Assembly: GCA_016463775.1 (NCBI GenBank)
Contig: JAEMQQ010000013.1
Coordinates: 1,956 to 41,384 of the forward strand
Direction: 5' to 3'
Length of the DNA stretch: 39,429 bases
Source: Ilumatobacteraceae bacterium
GTDB taxonomy: Bacteria; Actinomycetota; Acidimicrobiia; Acidimicrobiales; Ilumatobacteraceae
In this document: positions 33,366 to 37,655 of the stretch, one piece after another
Layout: each line of letters begins with the position of its first letter
Position numbering within the stretch: position 1 is the stretch's first letter
The notes under the pieces: model-generated
Database searches by the model: none
Told to the model about the DNA's origin: nothing
The model's input: the letters and a program-made list of their open reading frames with translations, nothing else
Position numbers and translations under genes: made by a program

Positions 33366-33441
33366 TCCGGGGTAGCTCAGTTGGTAGAGCAACGGACTGT
33401 TAATCCGTTTGTCGTGGGTTCGAGCCCCACCCCCGGAGCCA
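33366..33441 (+). tRNA. tRNA-Asn (anticodon GTT)
   Basis: The cloverleaf has acceptor TCCGGGG/CCCCGGA, D-stem GCTC/GAGC, anticodon stem ACGGA/TCCGT with loop CTGTTAA (GTT), and T-stem GTGGG/CCCAC with the normal loop TTCGAGC. Discriminator G and CCA (33439-33441) are encoded. Confidence 0.95.
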
Positions 33442-33453
33442 CGATTACCACCG

Positions 33454-33526
33454 GGGCCAGTAGCTCAGTGGTCAGAGCAGGGGACTCATAATCCCTTGGT
33501 CGTAGGTTCGATCCCTACCTGGCCCA
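33454..33526 (+). tRNA. tRNA with CAT anticodon (Ile2 or elongator Met)
   Basis: The 73-nt cloverleaf has acceptor GGGCCAG/CTGGCCC, D-stem GCTC/GAGC, anticodon stem GGGGA/TCCCT with loop CTCATAA (CAT), and T-stem GTAGG/CCTAC with loop TTCGATC. Discriminator is A; the 3' CCA is not encoded (ACTT follows). It is not the initiator, which has three G-C pairs closing the anticodon stem in another form. C4-G69 and C5-G68 in the acceptor, plus the GACTCATAATCCCTTGGTCG core, resemble tRNA-Ile2 (lysidine-modified), so it may read ATA rather than ATG. Confidence 0.88.
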
Positions 33527-33541
33527 CTTGTGGCCCTGTTG

Positions 33542-33556
33542 CCCGCTCGCCGCGGG
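33542..33556. terminator. Possible weak hairpin terminator
   Basis: CCCGC, a 5-nt loop TCGCC, and GCGGG form a short GC hairpin between the tRNA pair and the convergent CDGSH-like gene. There is no T-tract on either strand, so its role as a terminator is tentative. Confidence 0.25.
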
Positions 33557-33564
33557 TGCGACGA

Positions 33565-33726
33565 TCAGCTCGACTTTTTGAATTCTTTGACGAGTTCGGA
33601 GGCCTCGGTGAGGCCCTTGGCGGCTAAAGCTTGGGCGATATCGGTTTTCACCGCTTGCACCACCCGGTGCGTGCCGTTGCAATTTTTTTCTGGATCAGTC
33701 GTGTAGCCACATCCGCATGCGCCCAT
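33565..33726 (-). CDS. Tiny CDGSH-like iron-sulfur protein candidate
   Basis: This minus-strand frame encodes 53 residues. The N-terminus (GACGCGYTTDPEKNCNGTH) reads C-x-C-x9-C-N-G-T-H. This resembles the CDGSH (NEET) 2Fe-2S signature C-x-C-x2-(S/T)-x3-P-x-C-D-G-(S/A/T)-H, with one extra residue before the third Cys and Asn for Asp. The rest is a single amphipathic helix region (VVQAVKTDIAQALAAKGLTEASELVKEF) ending Lys-Lys-Ser-Ser. A good Shine-Dalgarno (AGAGG, 8 nt before the ATG) and a -10-like TAAGGT further upstream support expression. It is divergent from the BMP lipoprotein gene. Function unknown; simple zinc binding is the alternative. Confidence 0.7.
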   Translation of the reverse strand: MGACGCGYTTDPEKNCNGTHRVVQAVKTDIAQALAAKGLTEASELVKEFKKSS

Positions 33727-33783
33727 GGTGGTACCTCTTTCGTTTGATGTTGAATGAATACCTTATCGGTGGCCATTGGTGTC

Positions 33784-33789
33784 TACTAT
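33784..33789 (+). promoter_or_regulatory. -10 box of BMP transporter operon
   Basis: TACTAT, close to the consensus, would start a transcript near 33796 with a leader of about 50 nt before the ATG at 33848. The leader holds a perfect inverted repeat and a Shine-Dalgarno. No clear -35 is visible. Confidence 0.4.
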
Positions 33790-33810
33790 GCTCGGTCTCA
33801 ACTACAAACG

Positions 33811-33847: not shown

Positions 33848-34915
33848 ATGAGGAAGCACAAAGGACTTAAGTCCGCTGCGCTAGCCATTGCCGCATTCGC
33901 GCTGATCGCCAGCGCCTGTGGCAGTGACGAGGCAACGGAGGAAGTCGCAGAGGAAGAAGTCACAGAAGAGACGACAGCGCCACTGCCTGGCGCCGGCACT
34001 CTCGCCTGCATGGTCACCGACACCGGTGGTGTTGATGACAAGGGCTTCAACCAAATTTCCTACGCCGGCATGCTGCAGGCTGAATCCGAGCTCGGTGTCA
34101 CCATCGACTTGCTCGAGTCAGCAAGCGATGCCGACTACGCACCGAACCTTCAGTCGTTCGCCGACAAGGGTTGCAACATCACCGTCACGGTGGGTTTCCT
34201 CTTGGGAGACGCAACGAAGGCAGCCGCCGAGGCCAACGCTGGTCTTAGCTACGCCATCGTTGACTATGCGTACGATCCAGCAATCGCCAACGCTCGCGGT
34301 CTCGTGTTCGCCACAGACCAGCCATCATTCATGGCTGGTTACTTGTCGGCTGCAATGAGCAAGACCGGTATCGTCGGCACGTACGGCGGTATCAACATTC
34401 CGCCAGTGACCATCTTCATGGAAGGCTTCCGCAAGGGCGTTGAGTATTACAACACCCAAAAGGGTGCAACCGTGAAGTTGCTCGGTTGGGACGGCAAAGA
34501 CGGCACATTCGCCGGAAACTTTGACAGCCTTGACGATGGCAAGAACATTGCCAAGAGTCAGGCCGACGAAGGCGCCGACATCATCTTCCCAGTTGCCGGC
34601 CCAGTGGGTCTTGGCTCAGCGCAGTACGCGTTGGAGTCGGGTGGCAAGGTCAGGATCATCGGTGTTGACGTTGACATGAGCGTGTCGAACCCTGACGCAG
34701 CCGCGGTGTACATCGCCTCGGTGCTGAAGAAAATCGATGCAGCCGTGTTCGCAGCGATCAAAGATGTCGTTGAAGGAAGTGGTGTCACTGACAACTACGT
34801 GGGCACGCTTGCCAACGGTGGTGTCGGTGTGGCATTCACTGACGTTCCCGACGATCTGAAGGCCGAAGTTGAGGCCATCGGAGCAGGTATCGCAGACGGA
34901 TCAATCAAGATCTAA
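33848..34915 (+). CDS. BMP family (PnrA-like) substrate-binding lipoprotein
   Basis: This is the solute-binding protein of a BMP-type ABC importer, whose characterised relatives bind purine nucleosides (PnrA, NupN). The signal peptide ends in the lipobox IASAC, with Cys24 lipidated, followed by a Glu/Thr-rich linker (about 28-43). The fold begins LACMVTDTGGVDDKGFNQISYAGML, the diagnostic BMP motif (GGxxDxxFN). It continues with VGFLLGDATKAAAEAN, VFATDQPSFMAGYLSA and DIIFPVAGPVGLGSAQ. An upstream ATG at 33776 gives an unlikely N-terminus; ATG 33848 has a Shine-Dalgarno (GAGAGGGAG) and yields 355 residues. The ATPase and permeases follow after a strong terminator. Confidence 0.9.
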   Translation: MRKHKGLKSAALAIAAFALIASACGSDEATEEVAEEEVTEETTAPLPGAGTLACMVTDTGGVDDKGFNQISYAGMLQAESELGVTIDLLESASDADYAPNLQSFADKGCNITVTVGFLLGDATKAAAEANAGLSYAIVDYAYDPAIANARGLVFATDQPSFMAGYLSAAMSKTGIVGTYGGINIPPVTIFMEGFRKGVEYYNTQKGATVKLLGWDGKDGTFAGNFDSLDDGKNIAKSQADEGADIIFPVAGPVGLGSAQYALESGGKVRIIGVDVDMSVSNPDAAAVYIASVLKKIDAAVFAAIKDVVEGSGVTDNYVGTLANGGVGVAFTDVPDDLKAEVEAIGAGIADGSIKI

Positions 34916-34916
34916 G

Positions 34917-34932
34917 AGCGCTTCATTGCGCT
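34917..34932 (+). repeat. Short AGCGC/GCGCT hairpin after BMP gene
   Basis: AGCGC, a 6-nt spacer TTCATT, and GCGCT form a hairpin starting one base after the stop codon. It resembles the duplicated hairpin at 15596-15640 and precedes the strong terminator. Confidence 0.4.
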
Positions 34933-34939
34933 GAACGTG

Positions 34940-34978
34940 CGGGGCGGGTCGCGAAAGCGGCCCGCCCCGTTTCGTTGT
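34940..34978 (+). terminator. Strong rho-independent terminator inside BMP operon
   Basis: A 13-bp stem (34940-34952 with 34957-34969, one T-G pair) closes a GAAA tetraloop, and is followed by TTTCGTTGT. The GC-rich stem (GGGGCGGG/CCCGCCCC) makes this the clearest terminator in the window. It separates the binding-protein gene from the ATPase gene, so it likely keeps the binding protein more abundant than the membrane components. Confidence 0.85.
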
Positions 34979-35013
34979 ATTACTGTTCTTGGACATAAGG
35001 GGTGATGCACGAA

Positions 35014-36534
35014 ATGAAATTTGAATTGCGGGGCATCACCAAACGATTCCCTGGTGTTGTCGCCAACGACAACGTGAACTTGTCGGTGGAAACTGGTGAA
35101 GTCTTGGCCCTAATCGGTGAAAATGGTGCTGGCAAAAGCACCCTCATGAACGTGCTCTACGGGCTGTACCGGGCCGACGAGGGTGAATTACTGATCGACG
35201 ACCAGGCGACCCAGTTTTCTTCACCAGCTGATGCAATTGCGGCTGGTATCGGAATGGTGCACCAACACTTCATGCTGGTGCCGGTGATGACGGTTGCGGA
35301 AAACGTAGTACTCGGTGTCGAGCCGACGGGTCGATTCGGGTCGTTGGATATTGACGAGGCGCGGCGCATGGTGCGCGAGGTGTCCGACAGGTACCACCTC
35401 GAATTAGACCCGGATGCGATCATCGAAGACCTATCCGTGGGTGTGCGGCAACGTGTGGAGATCGTGAAAGTGCTCATGCGCGACGCAAAAATCGTGGTGT
35501 TCGACGAGCCGACAGCAGTGTTGACACCAAGTGAGATTTTGGAATTTTTCGGGATAGTTCGGTCGTTGGTGGCTGCCGGTCGGGGTGTCATCTTCATCAC
35601 ACACAAATTGAAGGAGGCACTAGAGATAGCCGACCGCATCAATGTCTTGCGCCGCGGCAAGGTGGTTGGTGAGGCATTGCCGAAGAACACCAGCGAAGCA
35701 GCGATCGCAGAAATGATGGTTGGTCGGCCCGTGCTGTTGGTGGTCGACAAAGCGCCGGCAACACCGCGTGAAGCAATGCTCACGCTGGCCGAGGTTTCCG
35801 TCGTCGATCCCGATGGCCGCACCGTGGTGGACGGTGCATCGTTTGAGGTGCGGGTTGGCGAAATCGTCTGCGTTGCTGGTGTGCAGGGCAACGGCCAGAC
35901 CGAATTGGTCGAAGCCATTGCTGGTTTGCGCCGAGTTGCTAGCGGATCAATCTCACTCGGTGGAAAGAACATCACGGGTGACTCACCGCGTGAGCGGCAT
36001 GCCGCAGGGATGGCGCATATTCCCGAAGATCGCCAGCGTCAGGGGCTGGTAACCGAACTGTCGATAACCGAAAATCTTGTCCTGACTCGCTATCACGACG
36101 CCGAATTTTCGCAGGGCATCCGCATGAAGTGGGGTGCCGCCGCCGCCAAGTCGCAGGAACTCGTCACGGCCTATGACATTCGTACGACCGACCCGTCACA
36201 ACTGGCGTCGACATTGTCGGGGGGAAACCAGCAGAAAGTGATCGTTGCACGCGAGTTGAGTCGCGACATACGCGTCGTGGTTGCCGCCCAGCCAACCCGT
36301 GGTATCGACGTCGGGTCAATCGAATATGTGCATGCCCAGATCGTCAAAGAACGCGACGCTGGTCGGGCGGTGCTGGTGGTGAGCACCGAACTTGATGAGG
36401 TGATGTCGCTGGCCGACCGTGTGCTGGTGATGTACCGCGGCAAAATCGTGGCGGACGTCGATCCGAAAAAGGTGAGCCACATGGACATTGGTCTGTACAT
36501 GGCTGGGTCTCGTCCGACGGCGGCTGTCGCGTGA
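35014..36534 (+). CDS. Nucleoside/simple-sugar ABC transporter, double ATPase
   Basis: This protein carries two fused nucleotide-binding domains, as in RbsA/NupO-type ATPases of BMP importers. Domain 1 has Walker A LIGENGAGKSTLMN, signature LSVGVRQRVEIVKVL and Walker B VVFDEPTAVLTP. Domain 2 has a degenerate Walker A (VAGVQGNGQTELVEAI), signature LSGGNQQKVIVAREL and VVVAAQPTRGID, where the catalytic Glu is Gln, a normal asymmetry of this family. The open frame begins at GTG 35002, but the Shine-Dalgarno AAGGGG (34997-35002) fits ATG 35014 better (506 residues). The permease gene overlaps its stop by 4 bp. Confidence 0.9.
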   Translation: MKFELRGITKRFPGVVANDNVNLSVETGEVLALIGENGAGKSTLMNVLYGLYRADEGELLIDDQATQFSSPADAIAAGIGMVHQHFMLVPVMTVAENVVLGVEPTGRFGSLDIDEARRMVREVSDRYHLELDPDAIIEDLSVGVRQRVEIVKVLMRDAKIVVFDEPTAVLTPSEILEFFGIVRSLVAAGRGVIFITHKLKEALEIADRINVLRRGKVVGEALPKNTSEAAIAEMMVGRPVLLVVDKAPATPREAMLTLAEVSVVDPDGRTVVDGASFEVRVGEIVCVAGVQGNGQTELVEAIAGLRRVASGSISLGGKNITGDSPRERHAAGMAHIPEDRQRQGLVTELSITENLVLTRYHDAEFSQGIRMKWGAAAAKSQELVTAYDIRTTDPSQLASTLSGGNQQKVIVARELSRDIRVVVAAQPTRGIDVGSIEYVHAQIVKERDAGRAVLVVSTELDEVMSLADRVLVMYRGKIVADVDPKKVSHMDIGLYMAGSRPTAAVA

Positions 36535-37655
36535 GTGAAACACTGAAGTCGCTGCGCTTCACACTGCTTGCCGTCGTTGCTGCATTGTTCGTGAGTGCCT
36601 TCATCATCGTGATCACCGACATCGAGGCGCTCGGGGACGGAAATCTCGGCAAGGCATTCGCCACTGTCGGCAGGGCATATTGGGGTCTGTTCAAGGGTTC
36701 ATTCGGGTCGTTGCGGGCGATTTCGAACACGATCACGGGTGCCACGCCGCTGTTGCTGGCGGGTCTGGCCGTGTCGGCGGCCTTCAAGGCCGGCTTATTT
36801 AACATCGGTGCCACCGGTCAGATGTTGGCGGGTGCTGTCACCGGTTTGTTCGTTGGTTTTGCATTTCAATTGCCACCGATCATCCACGTACCCTTTGCGC
36901 TTCTGGCGTCGGCTGCTGGTGGTGCTGCATTCGGGGCGATTCCTGGTGTGTTGAAAGCGCGAACTGGGGCGCATGAGGTGATTACCACCATCATGTTGAA
37001 CGGCATCGCCTCGTTCACCGTGTTGTGGCTGCTCAAGACGGAGTTGTTCAAACGTGAGGGTCGTGATGATGCGATTTCGAAATTCGTCGAAGATTCGGCA
37101 AAGTTGCCCAAGCTCTTTGGTTTCATGGGCAACCGCATCGACCTGCTTGCCCATAGTGGGTTCATCGTTGCGCTGCTTGCCACGTTGGCGTTCTGGTGGC
37201 TGTTGCGCAAGACAACCCTTGGTTTTGAAATGCAGGCAACTGGGTTCAACCAAGAAGCAGCGCGTTACGCCGGCATGCGCACAAAGTCGTTGATGGTGAC
37301 ATCAATGGCGATTGCGGGGGCATTCGCGGGGTTGGCGGGTGGCTCAGAGGTGCTCGGTCTGTACGGCTACGCCAGTGCAACCGTGGCTGGTGACATCGGT
37401 TTTGATGCGATTGCAGTCGCGTTGTTGGGTCGGTCGACACCGATCGGAACGCTCGTGTCGGCGTTGTTGTTCGGTGCGCTGCAGGCAGGCGGTCGCCAGA
37501 TGCAGGTTGATACCGATGTGCCGATAGATCTCATCATCGTGCTGCGCGCGCTCATCGTCATGTTCATTGCCGCTCCGCTGCTCGTTAAAGCCATGTTTCG
37601 TATACGAGGCGAAGCCACATCATTCGGCCAAACGTTCCGGGGCTGGGGCGGATGA
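36531..37655 (+). CDS. ABC transporter permease (BMP/NupP-type)
   Basis: The first of two permease subunits (374 residues) has about ten hydrophobic segments. The family core reads LLLAGLAVSAAFKAGLFNIGATGQMLAGAV and later GAIPGVLKARTGAHEVITTIMLNGIASF, the cytoplasmic loop that contacts the ATPase. GFNQEAARYAGM and GDIGFDAIAVALLGRSTPIGTLVSALLFGAL are also typical of BPD_transp_2 permeases. It begins with GTG overlapping the ATPase stop (GTGA) and ends overlapping the next ATG (ATGA), so the three genes are translationally coupled. The likely cargo is a purine nucleoside or simple sugar. Confidence 0.9.
   Translation: MSETLKSLRFTLLAVVAALFVSAFIIVITDIEALGDGNLGKAFATVGRAYWGLFKGSFGSLRAISNTITGATPLLLAGLAVSAAFKAGLFNIGATGQMLAGAVTGLFVGFAFQLPPIIHVPFALLASAAGGAAFGAIPGVLKARTGAHEVITTIMLNGIASFTVLWLLKTELFKREGRDDAISKFVEDSAKLPKLFGFMGNRIDLLAHSGFIVALLATLAFWWLLRKTTLGFEMQATGFNQEAARYAGMRTKSLMVTSMAIAGAFAGLAGGSEVLGLYGYASATVAGDIGFDAIAVALLGRSTPIGTLVSALLFGALQAGGRQMQVDTDVPIDLIIVLRALIVMFIAAPLLVKAMFRIRGEATSFGQTFRGWGG

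Follow-up and report, generated by a model that had tools for sequence, protein, structure and literature searches.

CDGSH proteins (PF09360, zf-CDGSH; NEET/CISD types 1-7) are recognized by the consensus C-x-C-x2-(S/T)-x3-P-x-C-D-G-(S/A/T)-H (PMC5311916), and nine CISD positions are universally conserved (C2, C4, S/T7, P11, C13, D14, G15, S/T/A16 and H17; PMC3174974). This signature holds a [2Fe-2S] cluster in the solved structures, all of which contain an N-strand, a P motif [GP-Phi-X-Phi] and a beta-sandwich dimer (PMC3174974). An earlier note on the DNA analyzed here stated that NEET proteins are usually longer or carry two motifs, which is only partly right, since small single-motif members exist, as exemplified by the archaeal type 3 protein PcCISD with 53 residues (PMC3174974).

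The window, i.e. the whole stretch of 39,429 nucleotides that was analyzed, belongs to an Ilumatobacteraceae genome of 1.56 Mb that is 94% complete (G000, contig C49) and in which no canonical CDGSH gene was found. The mini-CDGSH-like open reading frame on its minus strand translates to MGACGCGYTTDPEKNCNGTHRVVQAVKTDIAQALAAKGLTEASELVKEFKKSS, followed by a stop codon (Table 1). The AAAGAGG sequence ends 7 nt upstream of the ATG; similar AAAGAGG/AAGGAG-like sequences precede the start codon in most relatives, and a purine-rich stretch occupies the Shine-Dalgarno position in almost every one of 29 inspected family genes. A promoter scan for the gene found none. The gene stands alone between a convergent tRNA-Asn/tRNA-Met pair, located downstream of rpoD, and a divergent operon for a BMP lipoprotein and an ABC transporter that starts at approximately 33849 on the plus strand. 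In comparison to CDGSH, its motif C-x-C-x9-C-N-G-T-H contains one additional residue between the second and third cysteine and Asn instead of Asp. The earlier note had thus described the intact tiny gene, its Shine-Dalgarno sequence, its divergence from the ABC operon and its motif correctly.

Table 1. Features of the mini-CDGSH-like locus in window coordinates.
Feature	Position	Strand	Basis
Mini-CDGSH-like gene, 53 aa	33565..33726	-	Translation, homologues, alignment, purifying selection
C4-x-C6-x9-C16-N-G-T-H20 cluster-like motif, codons 4-20	33667..33717	-	Sequence; invariance in alignment
Predicted helical hairpin (helix 1, residues 19-36; helix 2, residues 40-48)	33583..33672	-	AlphaFold2
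Leader with Shine-Dalgarno-like AAAGAGG (33734-33740)	33727..33745	-	Sequence; purine-rich there in relatives
Segment of ~270 bp with the mini-CDGSH-like gene as sole gene	33530..33799	.	Replaced in G004 (L097)
tRNA-Asn(gtt) and tRNA-Met(cat), convergent neighbours, context only	33366..33527	+	tRNA genes

Homologues and selection both confirm the gene as real, with dozens of cellular relatives that are 61-92% identical. Protein searches identified clear homologues in 5 of 12 further genomes of the same genus and in one additional genus within the family, and public genomes, which partly overlap with this set, yielded 27 loci with one L12 chance match left out. Short homologues, which the earlier note had proposed to look for, are therefore widespread beyond the contig, and all of them keep the three cysteines and the histidine. 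The alignment of 27 cellular proteins is invariant at M1, C4, C6, G7, T10, D11, K14, C16, N17, G18, H20, V23, K27, D29, L34 and A42; C4, C6, G7, T10, C16, N17, G18 and H20 are also invariant across the combined cellular and phage set. The window gene differs from its closest relative by 21 synonymous and 6 non-synonymous changes (pS 0.58, pN 0.05), and other pairs behave similarly. As 27 of 27 homologues keep C4, C6, C16 and H20, and dN is 0.05 at a dS of 1.10 (dN/dS ~0.05), the reading frame is, far beyond chance, a gene under strong purifying selection.

Homologues were also detected in phages. Two scans of IMG/VR (24 and 57 contigs, 12 of them shared) provided 69 distinct phage contigs, 12 of which encode a nine-residue loop as found in the cellular proteins. 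The other 57 contain the canonical eight-residue loop with the CDGSH spacing C-x-C-x2-S-x3-P-x-C-N-G-T-H, for example in the protein MACSCGFSTDYPNCNGTHK, which retains 8 of the 9 conserved CISD positions. Among the short-loop contigs, 43 of 57 harbor a tRNA gene on the same strand within 3.5 kb downstream, and tRNA-Met comes first in 40; the same arrangement was observed for five of the 12 nine-loop contigs, with tRNA-Met first in all five. Genes for 2OG-Fe(II) oxygenases, Hsp20, thioredoxin, pyrimidine dimer glycosylase and WhiB are found in the phage neighbourhoods. According to tblastn searches of 104 partly redundant phage loci, the 2OG-Fe(II) oxygenase is present in 55, Hsp20 in 29 and WhiB, which is considered a key actinophage indicator (PMC10202952), in 15. 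Named phages (GenBank/INPHARED) and plasmid collections contained no believable homologue, and two Streptomyces phage matches were rejected due to the absence of the C-x-C motif. All 27 cellular members matched phrog_27955, a PHROG family of phage proteins with no assigned function (best E 4.7e-5), but the match is weak and for the window protein confined to the motif half, covering the first 30 of the 65 positions of phrog_27955. The literature searched contained no paper on a phage-borne CDGSH-like gene.

A second small cysteine-rich phage protein, W-[AV]-C-P-C-N-G-C-K-K-A-Q-K ... C-P-N ... [FY]-C ... H-[DE]-D-C, is encoded on the same strand 0.2-1 kb downstream of the mini-CDGSH-like gene in 32 of the 57 short-loop contigs and was seen at IMG/VR loci such as L129, L131, L132, L138, L157 and L166. 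It has no Pfam match and is a possible metal-binding partner.

The phage members link the window protein to CDGSH. Three cysteines and one histidine in the order C-x-C ... C-x3-H, corresponding to the CDGSH loop C-x-C...C-x-G-[ST]-H, are present in the 27 cellular and all aligned phage proteins. The short-loop phage forms show the exact consensus save for Asn at D14, their single deviation from the nine universal positions, whereas the window protein additionally contains the extra residue and has no proline there. The zf-CDGSH profile, suggested as a check in the earlier note, did not match the window protein or other cellular members but weakly matched each of the 20 phage members tested (best E 1.7e-4), compared to 3 for the next family; the bit scores, where shown, were 17.6-19 and thus below the gathering cut-off of 29.5 bits. 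NCBIfam returned no match for the family, and sequence searches of the PDB gave chance-level matches, the sole single-sequence match being a CDGSH protein (E 5.7). Profile comparisons with hhalign, whose E-values refer to single comparisons and to a CDGSH alignment of five sequences only, connected the cellular with the phage family (A1 versus A6, E 1.1e-21) and the phage family with CDGSH (probability 93.9, E 1.6e-7), but the cellular family directly with CDGSH at a probability of only 39 (E 3e-4). Because the phage relatives with canonical spacing bridge the cellular family and CDGSH, kinship is preferred over mimicry: the resemblance noted earlier stands, and the window protein is, judging from these alignments, probably a divergent relative of CDGSH domains and not a mimic. 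The most fitting description of the cellular form is a CDGSH variant that gained one loop residue and lost the proline. A tree of 47 proteins separates the short-loop phage forms (92/92), with some nine-loop phage forms next to them, and places the Ilumatobacteraceae copies as one group (97/88) inside the cellular set; its finer branching is unsafe, as it rests on so few columns.

Nevertheless, the protein cannot be filed as an ordinary NEET protein. Aspartate is replaced by Asn in every member of the mini-family, so that D14 is kept nowhere, and P11 is absent from all cellular members. The motif begins at residue 3-4, and with only three residues before C4 there is no N-strand in the window protein. 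AlphaFold2 models, calculated as monomers without metal, consist of a loop (residues 1-18 of the window protein) and two helices in both the window and the phage protein, with mean pLDDT values of 77.9 and 71.9, respectively; for the window protein, pLDDT is ~84-92 over the helices and 64-72 in the motif loop. The prediction supports the helical C-terminal half proposed previously. No beta-strand is predicted in either model, and therefore the N-strand, the P motif and the beta-sandwich of CISD proteins, where the mini-family is predicted to form a helical hairpin, are missing. By its sequence relationships the family is thus CDGSH-like by homology and lies outside the strict family definition. 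Foldseek detected no significant match in the PDB. In BFVD, Foldseek ranked A0A6J5NGJ5 first for the phage model; this unannotated and uncharacterised protein of 55 aa from an uncultured Caudovirales phage shares 41% identity across 39 columns at a probability of 0.96, but the E-value is 0.55. A kinship with the L7/L12 N-terminal hairpin (PF16320) was rejected: the weak resemblance at residues 27-51 of the window protein (E 0.005) scores 16.9 bits, which is below the 25-bit cut-off, occurs in 1 of 27 members and was judged convergent. The protein at the Blastocatellia locus L040 looks L12-like, was matched via the second helix and is not counted as a family member.

These observations suggest a minimal, distant CDGSH relative in which a 17-residue 3Cys-1His loop at the very N-terminus would be directly followed by an alpha-helical hairpin that replaces the usual beta-sandwich. 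The hairpin may dimerise, and each chain would then hold one exposed, labile [2Fe-2S] cluster, with which the protein would pass on electrons or clusters, or sense oxidants in sunlit surface water; in phages, the protein would support iron-dependent or redox steps. A probability of roughly 0.6 is assigned to this reading. The window family lacks D14, P11, the N-strand, the lid-proline and the hydrophobic positions needed to pack the beta-sandwich, and may therefore no longer bind a cluster or bind it differently. That D14 and the beta-sandwich are missing also favors the main rival, in which the loop would hold a structural zinc ion and the hairpin would bind a protein or a nucleic acid; the protein could, for example, be a regulator of phage origin that acts on the host RNA polymerase or ribosome. 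The basic residues after the histidine, the weak resemblance to the L7/L12 dimerisation hairpin and the proximity of the phage genes to tRNA arrays are also in line with a zinc protein. The L7/L12 match is limited to a single member, however, and C-x-C and C-x3-H combined with S/T7, P11, G15 and S/T16 in the phages constitute a specific CISD signature that holds [2Fe-2S] in solved structures (PMC3174974), which makes a zinc-binding regulator unlikely, though it deserves serious consideration. A new CDGSH architecture in the full sense, a [2Fe-2S] loop on an alpha-helical hairpin dimer without beta-sandwich that is exchanged between planktonic actinobacteria and phages as an auxiliary redox/iron-sulphur gene, is a tentative proposal, held at slightly below even odds.

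All clear cellular relatives that were found belong to planktonic Actinomycetota with small genomes (0.9-1.8 Mb) from two classes, namely the Ilumatobacteraceae of the window (class Acidimicrobiia) and the Nanopelagicales (class Actinomycetes), which include Planktophila; several MAG loci were placed in the Nanopelagicales by similarity and by their occurrence among Planktophila relatives, not by a marker tree. In the surroundings of Planktophila lacus, 19 of 80 genomes gave clear matches and one more a partial match. All holders there are 1.8 Mb or smaller: 19 of the 51 genomes below 1.9 Mb contain the gene, and 0 of the 29 genomes of at least 1.9 Mb do. Within the window's class, it was detected in 3 of 296 genomes; across the phylum, clear scores were obtained for 2 of 396, and almost all other sampled actinobacteria are devoid of it. 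A single copy was present in each of 13 genomes checked (1.1-1.8 Mb). The presence of the gene tracks genome-streamlined aquatic lineages. Three loci (L030, L035 and L039) stem from MAGs titled Bifidobacterium breve and Streptomycetaceae; these titles look wrong, as the sequences are of the planktonic-actinobacterium type and the genomes, where sized (L030 and L039), measure 1.1-1.4 Mb.

The cellular neighbourhoods differ almost everywhere, and no conserved operon partner was found across approximately 20 distinct contexts. An intact tRNA gene lies within ~60 bp of the gene in four contexts (tRNA-Met, tRNA-Val and two tRNA-Arg), and in one context a tRNA-like 3' half adjoins it. At the loci L031, L035 and L066, a VapC-like gene is directly followed by this 3' half, which looks like the remnant of an integration site, and then by the mini-CDGSH-like gene; an intact partner tRNA for the L031/L066 remnant was not found in that genome. 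In the genome G004 (L097, 1267-3103), the ~270-bp segment of the window is replaced by 1.8 kb of unrelated sequence, located between the tRNA-Met gene and the BMP operon, and the sequences on both sides are 94% identical. The gene adjoins a BMP/nucleoside-type ABC operon in two Ilumatobacteraceae groups (L015, L019 and L021 compared to window positions 33849-37655), on opposite sides of the operon. Overall, it behaves like a small single-gene cassette that is gained and lost.

Such mobility would also be expected of a gene that is selfish or acts antagonistically between phage and host (in superinfection exclusion, in anti-defence or as a decoy), that integrating elements keep near tRNA sites and for which metal binding is incidental. 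The varied contexts, some of them beside intact tRNA genes or the tRNA 3' remnant, the different segment in a 94% identical relative and the frequency of the gene in phages agree with this second rival. Nevertheless, strong purifying selection, a near-fixed motif in cells, retention in streamlined genomes and a presence in 19 of 51 small genomes around Planktophila, which is not sporadic, render it rather improbable. A functionless chance reading frame or assembly artefact, conceivable for an ORF under the usual length cut-offs, can be dismissed almost with certainty in view of the dN/dS of ~0.05 and the 27 aligned homologues across two classes, and binning artefacts do not explain holders that are complete chromosomes (NZ_CP016769 and CP015606).

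Under the preferred reading of an iron-sulphur protein, the cassette would travel between planktonic actinobacteria and their phages, with phage transfer as a plausible, though unproven, route. Phages encode the gene next to tRNA arrays and along with Fe(II)/2-oxoglutarate oxygenases, Hsp20 and thioredoxin, and may bring it to aid iron-dependent or redox steps during infection. The phage reservoir and the niche-restricted distribution are the more interesting parts of this analysis and were beyond the sight of the earlier note. If the protein binds a cluster, it would rank with the smallest known iron-sulphur protein folds and would indicate that the CDGSH module can do without the beta-sandwich common to all solved CISD structures. 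It would also represent an unreported phage-borne CDGSH-like gene that ties phages to the way in which abundant freshwater bacteria handle iron or redox processes. Irrespective of cluster binding, phages and small-genome aquatic actinobacteria share a conserved gene so small that it easily escapes notice.
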